Source of the DNA: a virus
DNA length: 40,433 nucleotides
Virus record (IMG/VR): IMGVR_UViG_3300038415_000184
Span: 1 to 40,433 of that record
Strand: one strand, 5' to 3'
Shown piece after piece: positions 1 to 37,512 of the stretch (within the stretch, counting starts at the first letter, position 1; the number at the start of each line of letters is the position of its first letter). The translations under genes and the position numbers were made by a program. The notes below the pieces were generated by a model. It saw only the letters and a program-made list of their open reading frames with translations. It searched no databases and was not told the origin of the DNA.

Positions 1-63
1 AAGCTAGAGGCCCACACCGGGCTAGAGAGTATGGCGAGAAGTAGAAGAAATTTCTTCACGGTT

Positions 64-1194
64 TTAGTTCGATATGACAACTTTGTGCCTTGCTCCGCCG
101 CCACCGCCCTGCTCGCTGCCCTGGGTGACGTAGGTTCCATATTGGCCCTGGTTGCGGTACTCCGTGGTGATCCAATCCTGGGAGCGGCTTGTATTCATGT
201 ACTGGACTTCATCTACCGTTGCCGATACGCTGTCACTGCCCAGAGAGTTACCGCCAACCGCCATGTCTCCCACCGGAGCATATAGGCCATTTGTAACAGA
301 AACGGGAGTGTTAGGAGAAGCGTTCAAGTAACAAGTTAGGTTTGACCCATCCCATGTTACATAGATGAAATTCATCGAACCCACCGTGGGGGCAGCGCAT
401 TGTGAACCGTGCCAGTTAGTGCTGGCGTCTTGGTGGGATGCTGCATACTGGTATGAACTAGAAGGGTGATCGTAATTCCAACCAAGAGAGTTACTGATTT
501 GATAACCAGTGAATACAGCCCCCACGCCAGTAGTGGGTGTGCTCGTTGGGTTGAACCAGAAGCTGTAGGAGTATGCAGAAATCGACGTTGTGACCGTTTC
601 ATGCACATAGTTATTGGTTGCATGATCAAACGTCGCAGCCCCATCTATCTGCCCTGAAGCACTTACCCCTGGAGTATTCACTCCAGTCCCTTGAACTCCT
701 GTAATGAAATCATACAAAGAAAGGGAGGTGCCGTTCGCAAAATGGAGACCAGAAATGAAATGGCTGTCATATGCTTGCCCAACTGTGCCGCCCTGGTAGG
801 TTGTTACTGTTGCATCATTGTAACAAACATAAGGCGTCCAGTCTACTGTATGAGATAAGGTTGGATTCAGAACGTGGGTAATGACAATTCCATTTGTCTG
901 GTCCCAGGATTCGATATCGAAATAGTATCGCGTGCTGCCAAGCGTCCCATTGCAAGCGCTCGTAGTGTCATACTCCAGATCAGCCGGAACCGTCTGTCCG
1001 TTGAATACTACAGAGTTCTGGATGTGACCGCCGCTGGCTTTGAATTGGTTCCCGGATAATATAATTGTGACGGTTTTATTGATTAGGTCGGAACTACCCG
1101 AAACCATCCCATGAGCGACGGTGATCTGGACATGGTTCGCGTATGCCCCGAACGCCGGGAGACAAAGCGCCAGAAAGAAGAGAAGCCGTTTCAT
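64..1194 (-). CDS. Secreted LamG (concanavalin A-like) domain adhesin
   Basis: The 376-residue protein starts with a clear Sec signal peptide (MKRLLFFLALCLPAFGAYA). Its second half has the LamG/concanavalin A-like pattern: an AATFD strand, a SYSFWFNP strand, IYVTWDGSNLTCYLN, a VDEVQ strand and a closing TEYRNQ motif. This fold usually binds glycans, so a role in attachment to host or environmental polysaccharide is inferred. The ATG at 1194 was chosen over a longer reading because it begins the signal peptide and lies one base past the stop of the upstream gene. It is the last gene of the late operon, beside two other adhesin-like genes. The base composition is more AT-rich than the head genes. 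A virion fibre, or a protein exported from the infected cell or lysogen, are both possible. Confidence 0.75.
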   Translation of the reverse strand: MKRLLFFLALCLPAFGAYANHVQITVAHGMVSGSSDLINKTVTIILSGNQFKASGGHIQNSVVFNGQTVPADLEYDTTSACNGTLGSTRYYFDIESWDQTNGIVITHVLNPTLSHTVDWTPYVCYNDATVTTYQGGTVGQAYDSHFISGLHFANGTSLSLYDFITGVQGTGVNTPGVSASGQIDGAATFDHATNNYVHETVTTSISAYSYSFWFNPTSTPTTGVGAVFTGYQISNSLGWNYDHPSSSYQYAASHQDASTNWHGSQCAAPTVGSMNFIYVTWDGSNLTCYLNASPNTPVSVTNGLYAPVGDMAVGGNSLGSDSVSATVDEVQYMNTSRSQDWITTEYRNQGQYGTYVTQGSEQGGGGGARHKVVISN

Positions 1195-1195
1195 G

Positions 1196-2359
1196 CTAGT
1201 CCACCGTGTAATCAATACTGCACGCCAAGGTTGTTGCAGTGCCCGTATTCGTCCCAATATGCACCGTAACCGGCGCGTGTGCAGCTACCGCGCAGGAGGT
1301 TGTGCCTCCGCACTGAGAGTTCCCATTCAGGAAAGTGCTCGTAGTGACTGTGTTGATGTCGCCTGCCGTTACTGTCATATCCGTCCCCAGCAAAGAGTAG
1401 GTTGCCTTAACGAGATTGACAACAATCGAGGTGGCTCCTGTTTGACCGCAACTCACTTTGGTTAGGTGGATTGCTGTTGCCGGATTCAGGACGGTGATTA
1501 GCCCGTCATCCCCAACTACCGGAGCGATATCAGTGAAAACGACCGTGCGCGTCACATGAGCGGTTGGGATGTCTTGAGTAATCAGAGCAGATGAGGAAAT
1601 CACATGGGAGGCGTTGTCGTGGAGAAGCTGAGTACCGTTCGTATTCACCGTCCCGCCGGCAGAGGACAGATCGACATTGGTTCCGCCTGCCGCCAACCCA
1701 AGCGTTCCGCTAATGTCGCCCATCGCGGGCTGTGTGCGTTGCTGCGTCCCAGTATTGTCCACGTAGAAGACCCATTTATGATCCGAACCAGGAGCTGCGA
1801 GAGGGACTACATCTGTTGCCACCACGGTCGTCCCGCTCCCAAGGCAGAACTGCGGGATGTGATTAGCGGAAGAGAAGAACCAAGTGTCGTAGGTTTGGGT
1901 TCCGGGACAAGCCGAGCCGAGAGTCTGTTCCCCACCACTCGCAGAAAGCGCCGTAGCCCCTGTCCCGAAGCTAGCTGCCCTCATCGGCCCGGTGATGGTC
2001 AAGGCGTGAGTCCCGGTCACATAGTTGAAGTTGGTCGCATCCTGAAGGAACGTAGTCCCATTGCCAAATGGAACCGCCGTAGAGGCCGGGACAAAACTTG
2101 TTCCCCAAGCACTTGAGCCTCCATACAATGCGAAACCAGCCCCACCGGGCCATGTCATAGAACCGCTGCCGGTTACGACCGTCCACGCGTTACTCTGGCA
2201 GGTAATGACTTGTCCAGATGAATTGAGATACCCGTATGTGGTTGCAGTGCACGCGGCCCCGATCCCGCCGGGAGGAGTGCCCGCAATAAACACCCCTGGG
2301 TACCAGATTTGGCCTAGCGCCGCGGCAGCGAATAGAACGAAGAGAATCAGAGTTTTCAT
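1196..2359 (-). CDS. Tail-fibre-like protein with signal peptide
   Basis: The protein has 387 residues. The first 17 (MKTLILFVLFAAAALGQ) are a textbook signal peptide with a cleavage site near ALG. The rest is rich in Gly, Thr, Ser and Ala and includes a GDISGTLGLAAGGTN stretch like the repeat linkers of phage tail fibres. Six cysteines occur in the mature part, which would suit an extracytoplasmic protein. The ATG at 2359 is preceded by AGAAGG at about seven bases, which decides the start over an upstream in-frame codon. It lies 19 bp downstream of the beta-helix spike gene and 1 bp upstream of the LamG gene. No enzyme motif was recognised. Receptor binding is an inference from position and composition. 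Confidence 0.65.
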   Translation of the reverse strand: MKTLILFVLFAAAALGQIWYPGVFIAGTPPGGIGAACTATTYGYLNSSGQVITCQSNAWTVVTGSGSMTWPGGAGFALYGGSSAWGTSFVPASTAVPFGNGTTFLQDATNFNYVTGTHALTITGPMRAASFGTGATALSASGGEQTLGSACPGTQTYDTWFFSSANHIPQFCLGSGTTVVATDVVPLAAPGSDHKWVFYVDNTGTQQRTQPAMGDISGTLGLAAGGTNVDLSSAGGTVNTNGTQLLHDNASHVISSSALITQDIPTAHVTRTVVFTDIAPVVGDDGLITVLNPATAIHLTKVSCGQTGATSIVVNLVKATYSLLGTDMTVTAGDINTVTTSTFLNGNSQCGGTTSCAVAAHAPVTVHIGTNTGTATTLACSIDYTVD

Positions 2360-2378
2360 GATGTGCCTTCTTGTGTTC

Positions 2379-4403
2379 CTAATAGTTAGCATAGTTCTGG
2401 GGTAGAGTGACGGTCACGAACGCCGTGCCCGCTCCTAGTGTGACCGAAGACCCGCTGCTGTTTTGAATGACCAAGGTTACAGTGTCAGCTGCATTCACGT
2501 AGGCCGTGATGGTAGCACCTTGCAGGTCCAGACTGAACCCGGCTGTAACCTGGGAACCCAACTGGGCGCCGGTTACGGTTGTAGTAGTGGTGACTCGGGA
2601 CCCGTTAGTAATCGTTCCCGGTGTCCAAGATTTGGCTCCTGAGAACTGCGGCCGGGATTCGGCAAACGTGCTGACTCCAGCGGGTATGGACTCCGGTGCG
2701 CCAGCGGTCGAACCCTGCCAGGAATTCCCAACTGATGTTACCCCAACAGAAGTGTAACCTCCCGCCGTTTCAACACGAAAACCATAGTATTGCGTTCCGG
2801 TGGCGGGGATGTCATTGTAAGCTGAGTTGTTGCTGAAGGTGCAGTAATCGCAACTCAAGCACCCTGAGCTGTAGGTCAGCGGGGCGGAGATAGGGGTATG
2901 CGGCGTAGATGCGCGCGCCGTAAAACCCGAGTAGGTCGAGGTAGGAGAGATTGTGATAAGCTGGCCATTGTCATAAGCAATGTTATTGGCTACAATACTG
3001 CCCTGTCCCCCAACGTCAATCCCTGGCCCTGACTGGCCATGGCAAATGTTTCCCTCGACTAAGTATGCGAACCCCCAAGTCTCGATGCACGATGCCGTGG
3101 AGTAAACCGGAGAACTCGCATCAGCAAAGATATGATTGTTGCGGATGATACTGTTTCTGTTGCGATAGTCACATTCCGTCACGATCCCAGATCCGTAATT
3201 CATGTCGTCGATGATGTTGCCTGAGATTTCAGAATCGATGACCGTCATGTCCATGTCTAGGCCGTAGAGGTAGTTATTTCGGAAGTAAGATTTCTGCACA
3301 CCGGCGGAGAACGATATTCCTCCTCCTACTTGGATAATGAACGGAACCGGGCTGGTCTGCGTGGTGGTCGAAGGCGTGATAGTGATTGTTCCGGGAGGGC
3401 TGTTGATGGAAGACATGCTATACATTCCGCTGTTGATCCACATGCTCCCGCCGCCGGCAGAAATTCTCCAATCACCAAATGAGCATCCGCTCACCCGAGT
3501 CACAGTAGTCCCGGAGGTGGTAGCGGTCCCGGTACAGGTAGCCCAGGGGTTCGTGCGGCTGAAGACATTATGGTTGATGTCGTTGTTCGACCCGGCGCTA
3601 AGCCCTAACCCATGAAAATCCATATTTATGATTGCGCTGTCCTTGAGGGTAAAGTAGGTGCAACTGGCGCAGGCAACGGGGGCATACCCGGCGGTCACGG
3701 TCGGGGCGTTATTCTGGTCTATCGTGAGGTTGCTGATCGTGACATTGTTGATCGCCGAGCCAAGAATCAGGTCATGGTTCAAGGTAGCGTTCTTGAGCCT
3801 GATTATGGACGAATCCGTAGACTCCCCTTGCAGGTCCACGCAGCTCGCAAGGCTAATAGCAACCGTGCTCGCGGTGGTGCTCACCATGTAGACCCCAGGA
3901 GGGAAAAACACCGTTCCGCAGCCATTGGCGGCCACATAGGTGATGGCCGCGTTGATGGCGGTGGTGTCATCCGTGGTCGCGTCTCCCTTGGCGCCGTAGT
4001 CTTTCACGTTGTAGACAGTCGTATAGCTGCCCACATCCGCCAGAAGCGTGAAGGGTGTCAGCCCGGTGCCCGAGATTTGCACATCGACATGCTGGCCAGA
4101 GGGCGACAGGTAGAAGTACCAATGTCCCGTCGAATCGGCGGTGAACGGGTTGGAATGCAGCGTGCCACCGCTACTGTCGGAATAGATTGAGGCCAACGTC
4201 CCACCGCTGCCCGTGACGTAAACCGTGACCGTGCAGGATGGGTAGGAGCGCTGGACCGGCGTAGCGGCGGAAGACAGGTATCCGACTACATTGACGGCCT
4301 GCCCGCCCTTTTCGCACCAGCCCTGGATGCGCTGCCCGGCGGAGGCGGTCGCCAGCACCATCAGCCCCGCCAGAATCGCATTGAGAATTGACTTACGCCG
4401 CAT
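2379..4403 (-). CDS. Pectate-lyase-fold (beta-helix) tailspike with signal peptide
   Basis: The 674-residue protein opens with a signal peptide (MRRKSILNAILAGLMVLATASA). At about residues 130-175 it has the Pectate_lyase_3 entry motif NVKDYGAKGDATTDDTTAIN, followed by FPPGVYMVS. Short N/D-rich rungs follow, as expected of a right-handed parallel beta-helix. Phage tailspikes with this fold bind and often cut surface polysaccharide. Active-site acids cannot be assigned by eye. The last 100 residues form a separate Gly/Thr-rich cap. The start ATG at 4403 has GGAAGGAA upstream. It sits in the receptor-binding block at the end of the late operon. A secretion signal on a virion spike is odd; an exported depolymerase is the alternative. 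Confidence 0.75.
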   Translation of the reverse strand: MRRKSILNAILAGLMVLATASAGQRIQGWCEKGGQAVNVVGYLSSAATPVQRSYPSCTVTVYVTGSGGTLASIYSDSSGGTLHSNPFTADSTGHWYFYLSPSGQHVDVQISGTGLTPFTLLADVGSYTTVYNVKDYGAKGDATTDDTTAINAAITYVAANGCGTVFFPPGVYMVSTTASTVAISLASCVDLQGESTDSSIIRLKNATLNHDLILGSAINNVTISNLTIDQNNAPTVTAGYAPVACASCTYFTLKDSAIINMDFHGLGLSAGSNNDINHNVFSRTNPWATCTGTATTSGTTVTRVSGCSFGDWRISAGGGSMWINSGMYSMSSINSPPGTITITPSTTTQTSPVPFIIQVGGGISFSAGVQKSYFRNNYLYGLDMDMTVIDSEISGNIIDDMNYGSGIVTECDYRNRNSIIRNNHIFADASSPVYSTASCIETWGFAYLVEGNICHGQSGPGIDVGGQGSIVANNIAYDNGQLITISPTSTYSGFTARASTPHTPISAPLTYSSGCLSCDYCTFSNNSAYNDIPATGTQYYGFRVETAGGYTSVGVTSVGNSWQGSTAGAPESIPAGVSTFAESRPQFSGAKSWTPGTITNGSRVTTTTTVTGAQLGSQVTAGFSLDLQGATITAYVNAADTVTLVIQNSSGSSVTLGAGTAFVTVTLPQNYANY

Positions 4404-4416
4404 GATTGGTTCCTTC

Positions 4417-5766
4417 CTACGCTAGGGTAAAACTCACAACCGCCATATCAGTATCATAAGGCCCAGCATTTGGATTCACGCAAAACCCAATAGAATCAGG
4501 AGTGAAGAAAGCCGAGAAATCAAAAGCCGTTGTTAGGTCCTTCCAATGAGCGCCGTCCATGGAAAATTGAAACAGCACATTGGATACAGAGGTGTACACT
4601 ATACGCATCCATGCTATGCATGGAGGTTGGGTTGTCAATGAGGAAAAAATATCGCTACCTCCACTTGACACAGAAGTAAACTCCGACACGTAGTAACCAA
4701 TTAAGTTACTGAAGCTTACAAGTAAAAAGGTAACGGCTTTCCCCAGCGAGCTATCATAAAGGACAACCCCGCGCCCTTGATAGCCAAGGTTAAGAAATAG
4801 AGCAGAATAACCAACCGTCAGGGTCTTGGAACCGCTCAATGCCTGTTTCAAAATGCGCAAGTTGTTACCAGCGGCCGGTGCCGTGAGATATATACAAGCT
4901 GGATTTGAACTATCAAGCGTCGCGGTCCCTTGATTGACCCACGAAAAATCTGCCGCTACTGGCGGCGTGAAGGTCGGCATCCAAGGAAAACTTGCGCCGC
5001 CTCCAGAAACTGTAGCCCACACTACGTCGTAGGCTGTATTAGAATTCTTAGTCAAAGACTGCCCGGTTGTTCCCCCTGTAGGTATTCCTACTGGCAGCCC
5101 AGTAATGTTCGTAGCAGCAATGGTAGGTGCTCCTGTCCAAGATGTGTTGCCACTGCCGTCAGTCTGCAATATCTGATGATTCGAGCCTGCATTGAGCGGG
5201 AAAGTCCACGTCCAGGCGCCTGTTGCCGGATCGACTGTAACGATCAACGAGTGAGAAGTGCCAGGGAAAATGATCTCGCTGAATGTGCCAGAGCCTCCGA
5301 AGCCTGCGATGGCCACGGCGGTGATGCTGGAAATCACCCCATCCGGGCCGACGACAATCTGCGCCACGTCGGTGCTGTCGCCATAAGTGCCGGGGACAAG
5401 ATCCTCGCCGCTCACTAGTGCCCAAGTACTAGTCTTGGCTGTGTAGCGATACAGTCGCCCGTTGTAGAAAACTACGGAGCCGTCGTAGGCCAGCGGGCTA
5501 GTACTGGATGGCAGTGCAGTGACGCTGGGAATCGTAGTCGGCTGCCCGGAGGAAGCCTTCCCAATGGCATTGGTCAGGTTCTGAGCTACGGTGGAGGGCG
5601 CAGCAGGAAGCGCCAGCGCCGCGGCGGTAGTAGCGGCTGCAGCGGCCTTCTGTGCCGCCAGTTCCTTTTGCAGGGAACCGACCTGCCGCGCCAGATCGTC
5701 CAGCCGACGGGCGGCGTCGGCCGGCAGCCCGAAGCCCTGGAACGACTTGTTGCCCAAGCCGCTCAT
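4417..5766 (-). CDS. Tail fibre: coiled-coil anchor plus receptor-binding tip
   Basis: The protein has 449 residues. Residues 10-50 form an Ala/Gln/Lys-rich heptad region (DDLARQVGSLQKELAAQKAA) that should trimerise. Around the middle is a GGTTGQSLTKNSNTAYDVVW segment, a motif common in phage tail fibres. The C-terminal 170 residues look like a beta-sandwich tip with aromatic-rich strands. Its ATG at 5766 overlaps the stop of the previous gene (ATGA), which fixes the start although the frame stays open much further upstream. It lacks the signal peptide seen in the next three genes. The tip is strongly AT-rich (38% GC at 4681-4740) compared with the anchor (73% at 5701-5760), a sign of domain exchange. 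Confidence 0.7.
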   Translation of the reverse strand: MSGLGNKSFQGFGLPADAARRLDDLARQVGSLQKELAAQKAAAAATTAAALALPAAPSTVAQNLTNAIGKASSGQPTTIPSVTALPSSTSPLAYDGSVVFYNGRLYRYTAKTSTWALVSGEDLVPGTYGDSTDVAQIVVGPDGVISSITAVAIAGFGGSGTFSEIIFPGTSHSLIVTVDPATGAWTWTFPLNAGSNHQILQTDGSGNTSWTGAPTIAATNITGLPVGIPTGGTTGQSLTKNSNTAYDVVWATVSGGGASFPWMPTFTPPVAADFSWVNQGTATLDSSNPACIYLTAPAAGNNLRILKQALSGSKTLTVGYSALFLNLGYQGRGVVLYDSSLGKAVTFLLVSFSNLIGYYVSEFTSVSSGGSDIFSSLTTQPPCIAWMRIVYTSVSNVLFQFSMDGAHWKDLTTAFDFSAFFTPDSIGFCVNPNAGPYDTDMAVVSFTLA

Positions 5767-25241: not shown

Positions 25242-25661
25242 ATGAAGAGCGATACAAAACAAGCGGGAACAATGACTTGCGGAGTATGCGGCGTTGCCTG
25301 TCAACGCTTCGGCAAGCACCGCAATGGTCTGCGTCGTTTCCGTTGTCCGCTCTGTAAGAAAACCTATACCGAAGTCCACAAGCCCGCGTTGGAGGGCAGC
25401 TACATCCCCGAGGAAAAGATCGTTCTGGCCCTCCGTCTCCTCATCGAGGGGAATTCGATTCGGAGCACGCAGCGCATTACGGACCTTGACCAAAATACGA
25501 TCATGCGATTGTTGGCGCTTTCCGGGGAGAAGTGCGAAAAGCTCATGGGCCGCTTGATTGTGAACGTCCCCGTTAAGGACGTGGAGTGTGACGAGATCTG
25601 GGGCTTCGTAGCAAAGAAGGAAGGCCACAAGGCTCAATCCGAACAATGGAACGAGAGGTAG
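25242..25661 (+). pseudogene. IS1-type transposase, 3'-truncated
   Basis: The 139-residue frame has the N-terminal zinc finger of IS1-type transposases (CGVCGVAC, then CPLCKKTY), a helix-turn-helix (about residues 62-95) and only the first catalytic aspartate (VECDEIWGFVAKKEGHK). The second Asp and the Glu are absent and the frame ends in an unrelated AQSEQWNER. It therefore cannot catalyse transposition and is a remnant. The promoter is intact and overlaps a palindrome. A remaining role as a DNA-binding regulator is possible. Confidence 0.75.
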
Positions 25662-27457: not shown

Positions 27458-27487
27458 TTGACATTTTTCTTAGCGCTAAGCTATACT
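27458..27487 (+). promoter_or_regulatory. Transposase promoter with palindrome in spacer
   Basis: TTGACA (27458-27463), an 18-bp spacer and TATACT (27482-27487) lie six bases before the ATG at 27494, near consensus and leaderless. The spacer contains CTTAGCGCTAAG (27469-27480), a perfect 12-bp palindrome identical to the one at 25695. Confidence 0.75.
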
Positions 27488-27493
27488 CAAAGC

Positions 27494-28318
27494 ATGAACA
27501 AGCTCGATACGGCTAAGCGTGCTCAGATCGTTGCAGCCATCGTGGAGGGCTGCTCAATTCGGTCCATCGTGCGCATGACGGGCGCATCGAAGAACACGGT
27601 GGCCAAGCTGCTGGTTGAGCTTGGCGCGGCCTGCCTGGAGTACATGGACGAGAACATTCGGAACCTGCGATGCCAGCGGATACAGGTCGATGAGGTGTGG
27701 AGCTTCGTAGGATGTAAGGAGAAGAATCTAACGCGCAAGAACGCGGCGCGTGGCGCGGTTGGAGACGTTTGGCTGTGGGTGGCAATCGACGCAGATACAA
27801 AGTTCATTCCCACTTGGTTCCTGGGAGACCGTGGGGCCGCTTCCGCGTACACGTTTATGAACGACCTCGCCGGTCGCTTGAGCAACCGGGTACAACTCAC
27901 CAGCGACGGCCTAAAGGTTTATCTGAGGGCCGTGGATGACACGTTCGGAACGGATATCGATTACGCAATGCTCGTGAAGATCTACGGTGAAACATCCGAA
28001 GGGCAGAAGCGTTACAGCCCGGCAGAGTGCATCGGTTGTGAACGCAAGCCCATCACGGGGAATCCCGATCCGGCCCACGTCAGCACGAGCTACGTGGAGC
28101 GCCAGAATCTCACGGTTCGGATGTCGCTACGCAGGTACACGCGCTTGACAAATGCGTTTTCTAAGAAGATCGAAAACCACTGTGCTGCGTTGGCAATTTT
28201 TTATATGTACTACAACTTCGTTAGGATTCATCAGACGTTGCGGGTGACCCCGGCGATGGCAGCGGGGGTAACGGATCGGCTCTGGTCAATTGAGGATCTG
28301 GTTGGATTGCTGGAGTAA
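27494..28318 (+). mobile_element. IS1-type DDE transposase, intact
   Basis: The 274-residue protein has an N-terminal helix-turn-helix ([20 protein letters not shown], about residues 25-44) and the three catalytic acids of IS1-type DDE transposases: VDEVWSF, then LTSDGLKVY, then [19 protein letters not shown]. The C-terminal [15 protein letters not shown] motif is typical. Unlike the truncated copy it lacks the zinc finger. Terminal inverted repeats were not found. The start is the ATG six bases after the -10; an upstream in-frame TTG falls inside the -35. The 3' end overlaps the Ntn hydrolase gene by 98 bp on the other strand. Confidence 0.8.
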
Positions 28319-36757: not shown

Positions 36758-37270
36758 CTATTGCGCCGTGCCGAAGCCCAGCGAAAAGATCAATTGGCTG
36801 CCGCTCTGGTTTGAGACATTGGAACTGACGACGCGGACCATAGGGGCAACGTACCACGTCCCCTTACCAATCGCGTGTGCAGCCATCCCGCCTGCCGACC
36901 ATGCCCAGCCGGCGCTGCCGCCGTTCCAACTTGGGCCAACCGCTCCGGTTGCGTAGACGGTCCAGGCGCCCGCTGAGAGCATTTTCTGGGCAACTCCAGC
37001 CCCTACGTTGGTTGTAACGGTGATTGGCTTTACGTTTGTTGGCACGATGTCGATCACCGTGTAGGCATACGTTCCCGTGGCGTCGGCAACTGCCCTCGCA
37101 TACATCGCAGTCCCGGCGCACTGCTGGGCCAGCGTTGAGGACGCGCCTTGATTCCAACTGGCGCCCACTCCCCAGATGTTCACGGGGTTGACTGGCGCGG
37201 GAGTTGGTGTTTGCCCGAGCGCGACGAACGCGAGCGGCAGGCAGAGCGCAAGAATCTTGATGGTTCTCAT
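36758..37270 (-). CDS. Secreted beta-rich protein with signal peptide
   Basis: The 170-residue protein begins with a signal peptide (MRTIKILALCLPLAFVALGQ) and a Thr/Pro linker. The mature part has alternating Gly/aromatic strands (NIWGVGASWNQG, AVGPSWNGGSAGWAWSAGGM, ending SGSQLIFSLGFGTAQ). The pattern, and a final phenylalanine-rich strand, resemble a small outer-membrane beta barrel. A surface protein that changes receptor exposure would fit, but this is inference. The ATG at 37270 has GGAAGGAA upstream. Confidence 0.6.
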   Translation of the reverse strand: MRTIKILALCLPLAFVALGQTPTPAPVNPVNIWGVGASWNQGASSTLAQQCAGTAMYARAVADATGTYAYTVIDIVPTNVKPITVTTNVGAGVAQKMLSAGAWTVYATGAVGPSWNGGSAGWAWSAGGMAAHAIGKGTWYVAPMVRVVSSNVSNQSGSQLIFSLGFGTAQ

Positions 37271-37512
37271 TTGACGTTTCCTTCCTTCATTTTTTGTGGG
37301 GCTGCAGGGGCACCTTGGCATTTACCACGTATGCCGGTGAGATAGTAATTCCCGTCACAATAGCAGCCCACCTGACAGTCGCTAGACCATTCGCAGGTCC
37401 CGCCGCATCGATTGAGACTGCATGGGGCCGGCTTGGTGGCCACTAATATGGCCACTGTAGCAAGTAGCACCAGCAGGAAAACGGGCAAACCTTTGCAGAA
37501 TCTGATAAACAT
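37267..37512 (-). CDS. Membrane-anchored cysteine-rich knottin-like protein
   Basis: The 81-residue protein has a signal or anchor helix (GLPVFLLVLLATVAILVA) and a domain with cysteines at 31, 36, 40, 46, 50, 52 and 65. The central spacing C-x5-C-x3-C-x-C matches squash-inhibitor and cyclotide knottins (compare SSDCQVGCYC). Disulfides can form only outside the cytoplasm, consistent with the signal. Protease inhibition or envelope binding are possible; neither is shown. It overlaps the secreted-protein gene by ATGA. Confidence 0.55.
   Translation of the reverse strand: MFIRFCKGLPVFLLVLLATVAILVATKPAPCSLNRCGGTCEWSSDCQVGCYCDGNYYLTGIRGKCQGAPAAPQKMKEGNVK

Follow-up and report, generated by a model that had tools for sequence, protein, structure and literature searches.

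Virions of tailed phages are taught as being assembled wholly in the cytoplasm. At the locus analysed here, three consecutive genes of receptor-binding type, encoding a LamG protein, a fibre-like protein (fib2) and a beta-helix tailspike, each open with a sequence that resembles a Sec signal peptide. We asked whether these signal peptides are genuine, and what export of such proteins would mean for a tailed phage.

Signal peptides at the fibre locus

The window, that is, the whole stretch of DNA that was analysed, is a linear virus record of 40.4 kb in which the late genes lie on the minus strand. Among annotated phages, its terminase and capsid protein were nearest to those of Tunturi_1 (29% and 32% identity, respectively), an isolated podovirus of Tunturiibacter, a genus of Acidobacteriota, and the order terminase, portal, capsid, gp11, gp30 and gp31 is common to both phages. 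Thus, the host of the window phage is probably, although not certainly, an acidobacterium. Past gp31, a gene of 280 aa is followed by a fibre gene without a signal peptide and then by the beta-helix, fib2 and LamG genes (Table 1). The GC3 of the fibre genes (1-5766), with or without a signal peptide, was 0.53-0.67, and that of core virion genes was higher (0.71-0.81). Elsewhere, in a mostly minus-strand region, a transposase-like gene with a weak PHROG transposase match (27458-28318, plus strand) and a second, short zinc-finger/HTH-like ORF (25242-25661, plus strand) are likely insertion elements in the phage.

Table 1. Features of the fibre locus of the window phage
Feature	Position	Strand	Basis or remark
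Fourth signal-peptide gene, start only, runs past the window edge	1..59	-	GTG at 59 (TTG at 80 or GTG at 104 possible); VKKFLLLLAILSSPVWASS
LamG gene, 376 aa	64..1194	-	Pfam Laminin_G_3, 5e-10
LamG signal peptide MKRLLFFLALCLPAFGAYA	1138..1194	-	Score 6.76; predicted cleavage between MKRLLFFLALCLPAFGAYA and NHVQ
fib2 (fibre-like gene), 387 aa	1196..2359	-	ORF and SD; low-complexity fibre-type sequence, 8 Cys
fib2 signal peptide MKTLILFVLFAAAALG	2312..2359	-	Score 6.64; by-eye cleavage between MKTLILFVLFAAAALG and QIWY, score puts the site two residues earlier
Beta-helix tailspike gene, 674 aa	2379..4403	-	Pectate lyase-like, Pfam 2.6e-17; PHROG tail spike 1.9e-13
Pectate lyase-like beta-helix region, residues 131-290	3534..4013	-	Pfam; PDB matches mannuronan epimerases, beta-1,3-glucanases
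Tailspike N-terminal domain, residues 24-130	4014..4334	-	HMM family whose members occur either with a signal peptide or without one; AlphaFold model
Cys57, second cysteine of the covarying pair	4233..4235	-	Domain alignment
Cys30, first cysteine of the covarying pair	4314..4316	-	Domain alignment
Tailspike signal peptide MRRKSILNAILAGLMVLATASA	4338..4403	-	Score 6.6; predicted cleavage between MRRKSILNAILAGLMVLATASA and GQRI
Fibre without signal peptide	4417..5766	-	Starts MSGLGNKSFQGF; in the same operon; N-terminus conserved in relative L014

Gene starts were re-derived from the DNA, and signal peptides were called using a rule-based score of the n-, h- and c-regions, which is a rule of thumb and not SignalP. 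The tailspike and fib2 genes start at ATG codons (4403 and 2359) preceded by the Shine-Dalgarno sequences AGGAAGG and AGAAGG, respectively, and the ATG of the LamG gene (1194) directly follows the fib2 stop codon (TAGCATG). The three N-termini scored 6.6-6.8, and each had the features of a Sec/SPase I signal: a short positive n-region, a hydrophobic h-region and small residues at -3 and -1, all within the first 15-30 residues. When the score was calibrated, 12 of 13 known E. coli signal peptides scored 5.3-7.1 and one was missed; a score of at least 6 was reached by 3 of 4995 shuffled N-termini and by none of 119 core virion genes of relatives. The chance origin of three adjacent signal peptides is negligible. 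A sequence-only reading of the window had described the LamG, fib2 and beta-helix genes as starting with strong signal peptides and the neighbouring fibre as lacking one; the re-derived starts, scores and calibration bear out the former as textbook Sec signal peptides, and the same scoring agrees with the latter. By eye, neither LamG nor fib2 contains a twin arginine; the spike begins with MRRKS, a poor Tat motif, and its domain with a cysteine pair (see below) argues for Sec rather than Tat.

Beyond these three, signal peptides were found on a fourth gene, which starts at 59, and on two adjacent genes near the other end of the window (36758-37270 and 37267-37512) with signal or anchor sequences. 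One of the latter two encodes an 81-aa protein with eight cysteines and the other a 170-aa protein, whose signal MRTIKILALCLPLAFVALG is followed by Q and which might be a small barrel; neither protein had a family match.

The tailspike N-terminal domain and its cysteine pair

The tailspike combines a right-handed pectate lyase-like beta-helix with an N-terminal domain of virion type. This domain of approximately 105 residues directly follows the signal peptide and is common to many otherwise different proteins. Searches with tblastn showed homology (1e-7 to 1e-4) between this domain and the one with which tailspikes of Serratia and E. coli phages begin. When its AlphaFold model (pLDDT 84.5) was compared with the PDB, podophage tail machines, those of Pam1 and Pan3, were the best matches (E 0.01-0.03, probability 1.00); the viral matches were tailspikes and a depolymerase. 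By homology, we take the domain to be a putative virion-attachment domain. A pattern search (alignment A4), which covers close relatives only, gave one match in 84,980 prokaryotic species genomes.

Because the domain occurs with and without a signal peptide, it provides a natural experiment. We compared 64 viral contigs with this domain, 43 signal-bearing and 21 signal-less, in which five borderline signal calls were counted as present by eye. A pair of cysteines, the first where the domain begins and the second ahead of the strand TVTVY, was present in 37 of the 43 signal-bearing copies versus 0 of the 21 signal-less copies (Fisher 7e-12, a value that treats related copies as independent and hence overstates the case). 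The two cysteines were nearly always present together or absent together. On a tree built without the cysteine columns, the signal changed 9 times and the cysteine pair 8 times. Well-supported independent contrasts numbered three, which is too few for significance, and were never discordant (on average, 2.7 changed in the same direction, 0 in the opposite direction and 0.3 were unchanged). The clearest contrast was between sister copies (branch 97/84), L171 (G009) with the signal and the cysteine pair and L172 (G013) with neither, and both spikes lie between gp11 and gp30 in their respective genomes. Further, a copy nested among exported ones (L200) lost the signal and both cysteines, and the copy L219 kept the signal and lost both cysteines. 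The pair is missing from 6 of the 43 signal-bearing copies, indicating that disulfides are not required.

The signal-less copies begin at a Met (MQRVQGW...) that corresponds to the expected start of the mature exported protein. Conversely, a Met lies within the first three mature residues of 5 of 38 distinct exported copies, compared with 0.9 expected (p = 0.002), as if a signal had been placed ahead of an old start codon. In the alignment, Met1 of the E. coli phage spikes falls on the Met that follows ...APTWA in one exported copy (L228). In most exported copies, the residues at -1 and -3 are small and the conserved domain follows shortly after; a few copies, such as L173 and L187, have atypical c-regions. 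The signal peptides of exported spikes often end before Gln (A-Q or G-Q; L189, L196, L201, L207, L208 and L212, at about 2930-3000), possibly a habit of the host lineage. One signal-bearing copy (L210) matched PHROG families for virion structural proteins (6.5e-41) and tail spikes (8.7e-24).

The sequence-only reading had offered three reasons for the signal peptides: disulfide formation in the periplasm, secretion as free depolymerases or receptor blockers, and recent capture of host proteins. Of these, disulfide formation is the best supported, by the cysteine pair of the spikes. It had also expected homologues without the signal to speak against export. Such homologues exist, yet they lack the cysteines and start at the position of the mature protein, and they thus support export rather than refute it.

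Neighbouring genes and recurrence in related phages

The evidence from cysteines and from a virion domain concerns the spike only; for fib2, the support consists of the signal and the fibre-like sequence. No Pfam match and no significant PHROG match were obtained for fib2, and these searches found no virion-attachment domain in it. In a related phage (contigs L056 and L064), a protein of 810 aa without a signal contains, at residues 200-545, a region homologous to the LamG protein; only the LamG module is common to the two proteins. The cysteines of LamG and of the L064 protein were out of register, so that the cysteine comparison was uninformative for LamG, and an AlphaFold model of LamG from three sequences was discarded (pLDDT 33). 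The LamG proteins of L011 and L017, phages 99.5-100% identical to the window phage elsewhere, shared approximately 42% identity with that of the window overall; the N-terminal end was the same, the last 20 residues were nearly so and the middle was different. This difference is an apparent cassette exchange of a receptor-binding module.

The fourth gene begins just beyond the LamG stop codon. Its counterpart in the near-identical contig G001 encodes 2109 aa, comprising a signal peptide, LamG and three repeats of the choice-of-anchor Z family, which was modelled on bacterial proteins. The signal-bearing 2109-aa protein of L017 (2711-9040) likewise contains LamG and three such repeats (NF058597, 3.7e-61); a motif further along the protein recurs in the next gene, of 183 aa. 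A heparinase-type lyase, suggested by the look of the central part of the fourth gene, was dropped; a phmmer search against the PDB was empty. In G001, the 2109-aa gene is followed by a gene of 183-190 aa and then by one of 129 aa. In a more distant relative, L014, the counterpart of the 129-aa gene directly follows the fibre gene, suggesting that the signal-peptide genes form a variable cassette at the fibre locus.

Related phages share the feature, but sporadically. In Tunturi_1, five genes of one tail-module cluster (gp12, gp13, gp14, gp16 and gp17) carry signal peptides, as do gp113 and gp114 of Tunturi_4, a siphovirus unrelated to Tunturi_1. The structural genes of Tunturi_3 have no strong signal peptide, and thus not all Acidobacteriota phages have the feature. 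In a set of 15 metagenomic relatives, large fibre-type genes with signal peptides were found in the tail modules of G007, G009, G012, G018, G020, G021 and others, but not of all; several relatives lacked a strong signal-peptide fibre. The survey by capsid gene covered 10 kb only, a stretch from which the fibre genes are often missing. Three of its matches, in L048, L050 and L101 (at 9866), resemble capsid genes whose start was placed too far upstream, and they were not counted. A 400-aa gene of Tunturi_1 annotated as 'tail protein' (53744-54946; L009:8745-9947) starts with MNTKILLLSLLLTGCATG, a lipoprotein-type signal, and is distant from the tail genes. A text search of the Tunturi paper (PMC11924767) for signal peptides, structural proteins and SDS-PAGE came back empty, and in the open-access literature we found neither virion proteomics nor a published precedent for exported tail fibres of tailed phages.

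A proposed split assembly line and its alternatives

On this evidence, export of the spike and fibre proteins, as predicted from their sequences, is well supported, and we infer that the exported proteins attach to virions. Our main reading, to which we assign a probability of roughly 0.55, is that the window proteins are receptor-binding or glycan-degrading tail proteins that are exported, mature in the periplasm and join tails at lysis. The chains would cross the inner membrane by Sec and lose the signal peptide, and the mature chains would then fold and form disulfides in the periplasm. There they would wait during the cytoplasmic assembly of capsid and tail, until holin and endolysin open the compartments at lysis and the fibres could attach to tails. 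Such late attachment is plausible because P22 tailspikes bind finished particles in vitro.

The main competitor, which we consider unlikely, is that the proteins are free enzymes or lectins, soluble depolymerases or glycan binders released to the periplasm or medium, where they would loosen exopolysaccharide to the benefit of progeny or compete for receptors. Signal-bearing pectate-lyase-like, GDSL-like, DUF2961 and LamG modules do exist, and a bacterial enzyme, WceF, combines a tailspike fold with a Tat signal (PMC7949094). However, the first mature domain of the spike is of the virion type and would be useless to a free enzyme, versions without a signal are found at the same locus, the signal-bearing L210 carries virion structural modules, and no element for outer-membrane secretion was seen by eye. 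A much less probable explanation is that export mainly keeps a harmful or sticky activity from the cytoplasm or blocks early joining to tails, with disulfides being a secondary adaptation. The six signal-bearing copies without the pair would fit that explanation, but the signal-less versions of the same spikes imply that cytoplasmic folding is tolerated.

It is improbable that the genes are morons, cargo captured from a host and placed in the tail operon, whose products, secreted proteins of the host or surface proteins like Lom, would alter the surface of the infected cell by superinfection exclusion or receptor masking. A precedent is lambda lom, which encodes an outer-membrane protein with a signal peptide and lies between spike and side-fibre genes (PMC12309495), and the choice-of-anchor Z repeats and the lower GC3 of the fibre genes point the same way; the signal-less fibre, however, has an equally low GC3, and LamG has a homologue without a signal that forms part of a longer protein in a related phage. 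Neither the spike nor LamG is an outer-membrane beta-barrel of the Lom type, the spike being pectate lyase-like and LamG ConA-like according to Pfam. The recent host capture proposed by the sequence-only reading is not supported for the N-terminal domain of the spike, given its tailspike homology and its single match in the pattern search of 84,980 prokaryotic species genomes for close relatives, and is possible for the LamG-like genes, given those repeats. Least probable of all is an uncleaved hydrophobic N-terminus that serves as an inner-membrane anchor during assembly or as a hydrophobic segment for tail attachment. Cleavage is a prediction and the atypical c-regions would suit such an anchor, but in most copies the small residues lie near the conserved domain, signal-less homologues begin at that point, and a conserved cysteine pair that goes with the signal is most readily understood in a protein located outside the cytoplasm.

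We give about even odds to a broader scheme: in Acidobacteriota phages, and probably in other soil phages, capsid and tail would be made in the cytoplasm, and Sec-exported, oxidised receptor-binding parts would be joined at lysis, with spikes switching route by gain or loss of a signal ahead of the old start, together with the disulfide. If true, this would give phage morphogenesis a further compartment and a step of disulfide formation and leave phages free to use extracellular-type domains, and the usual cytoplasmic expression of such spikes may yield misfolded protein. The isolated phages Tunturi_1 and Tunturi_4 make the idea testable.

Known systems share parts of this scheme. The coat proteins of filamentous phages are virion proteins made with Sec signal peptides, as proposed here, and these virions assemble in the membrane, whereas tailed phages assemble in the cytoplasm. 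The tailspikes of Serratia phages MyoSmar, MTx and Spe5P4 and of E. coli phages ep3, ECO1230-10 and Alux-21 have an N-terminal domain homologous to that of the window spike, several have a pectin-lyase or depolymerase-type body, and their genes are sited in the structural module; in contrast to the window spike, they have neither signal peptide nor cysteine pair and begin with the domain from residue 1. Tunturi_1 and Tunturi_4 resemble the window phage in having several tail-module genes with signal peptides, and gp12 of Tunturi_1 has the same N-terminal domain as the window spike, but their receptor-binding modules are different. Lambda Lom is likewise encoded by a signal-peptide gene within a tail-fibre locus (PMC12309495), but it is a beta-barrel inserted in the outer membrane of the host and not a fibre. 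WceF of Pantoea stewartii, a biofilm enzyme of bacterial origin, is exported, as proposed for the window spike, and has a trimeric tailspike fold (PMC7949094), but it uses a Tat signal and is encoded outside any phage operon.
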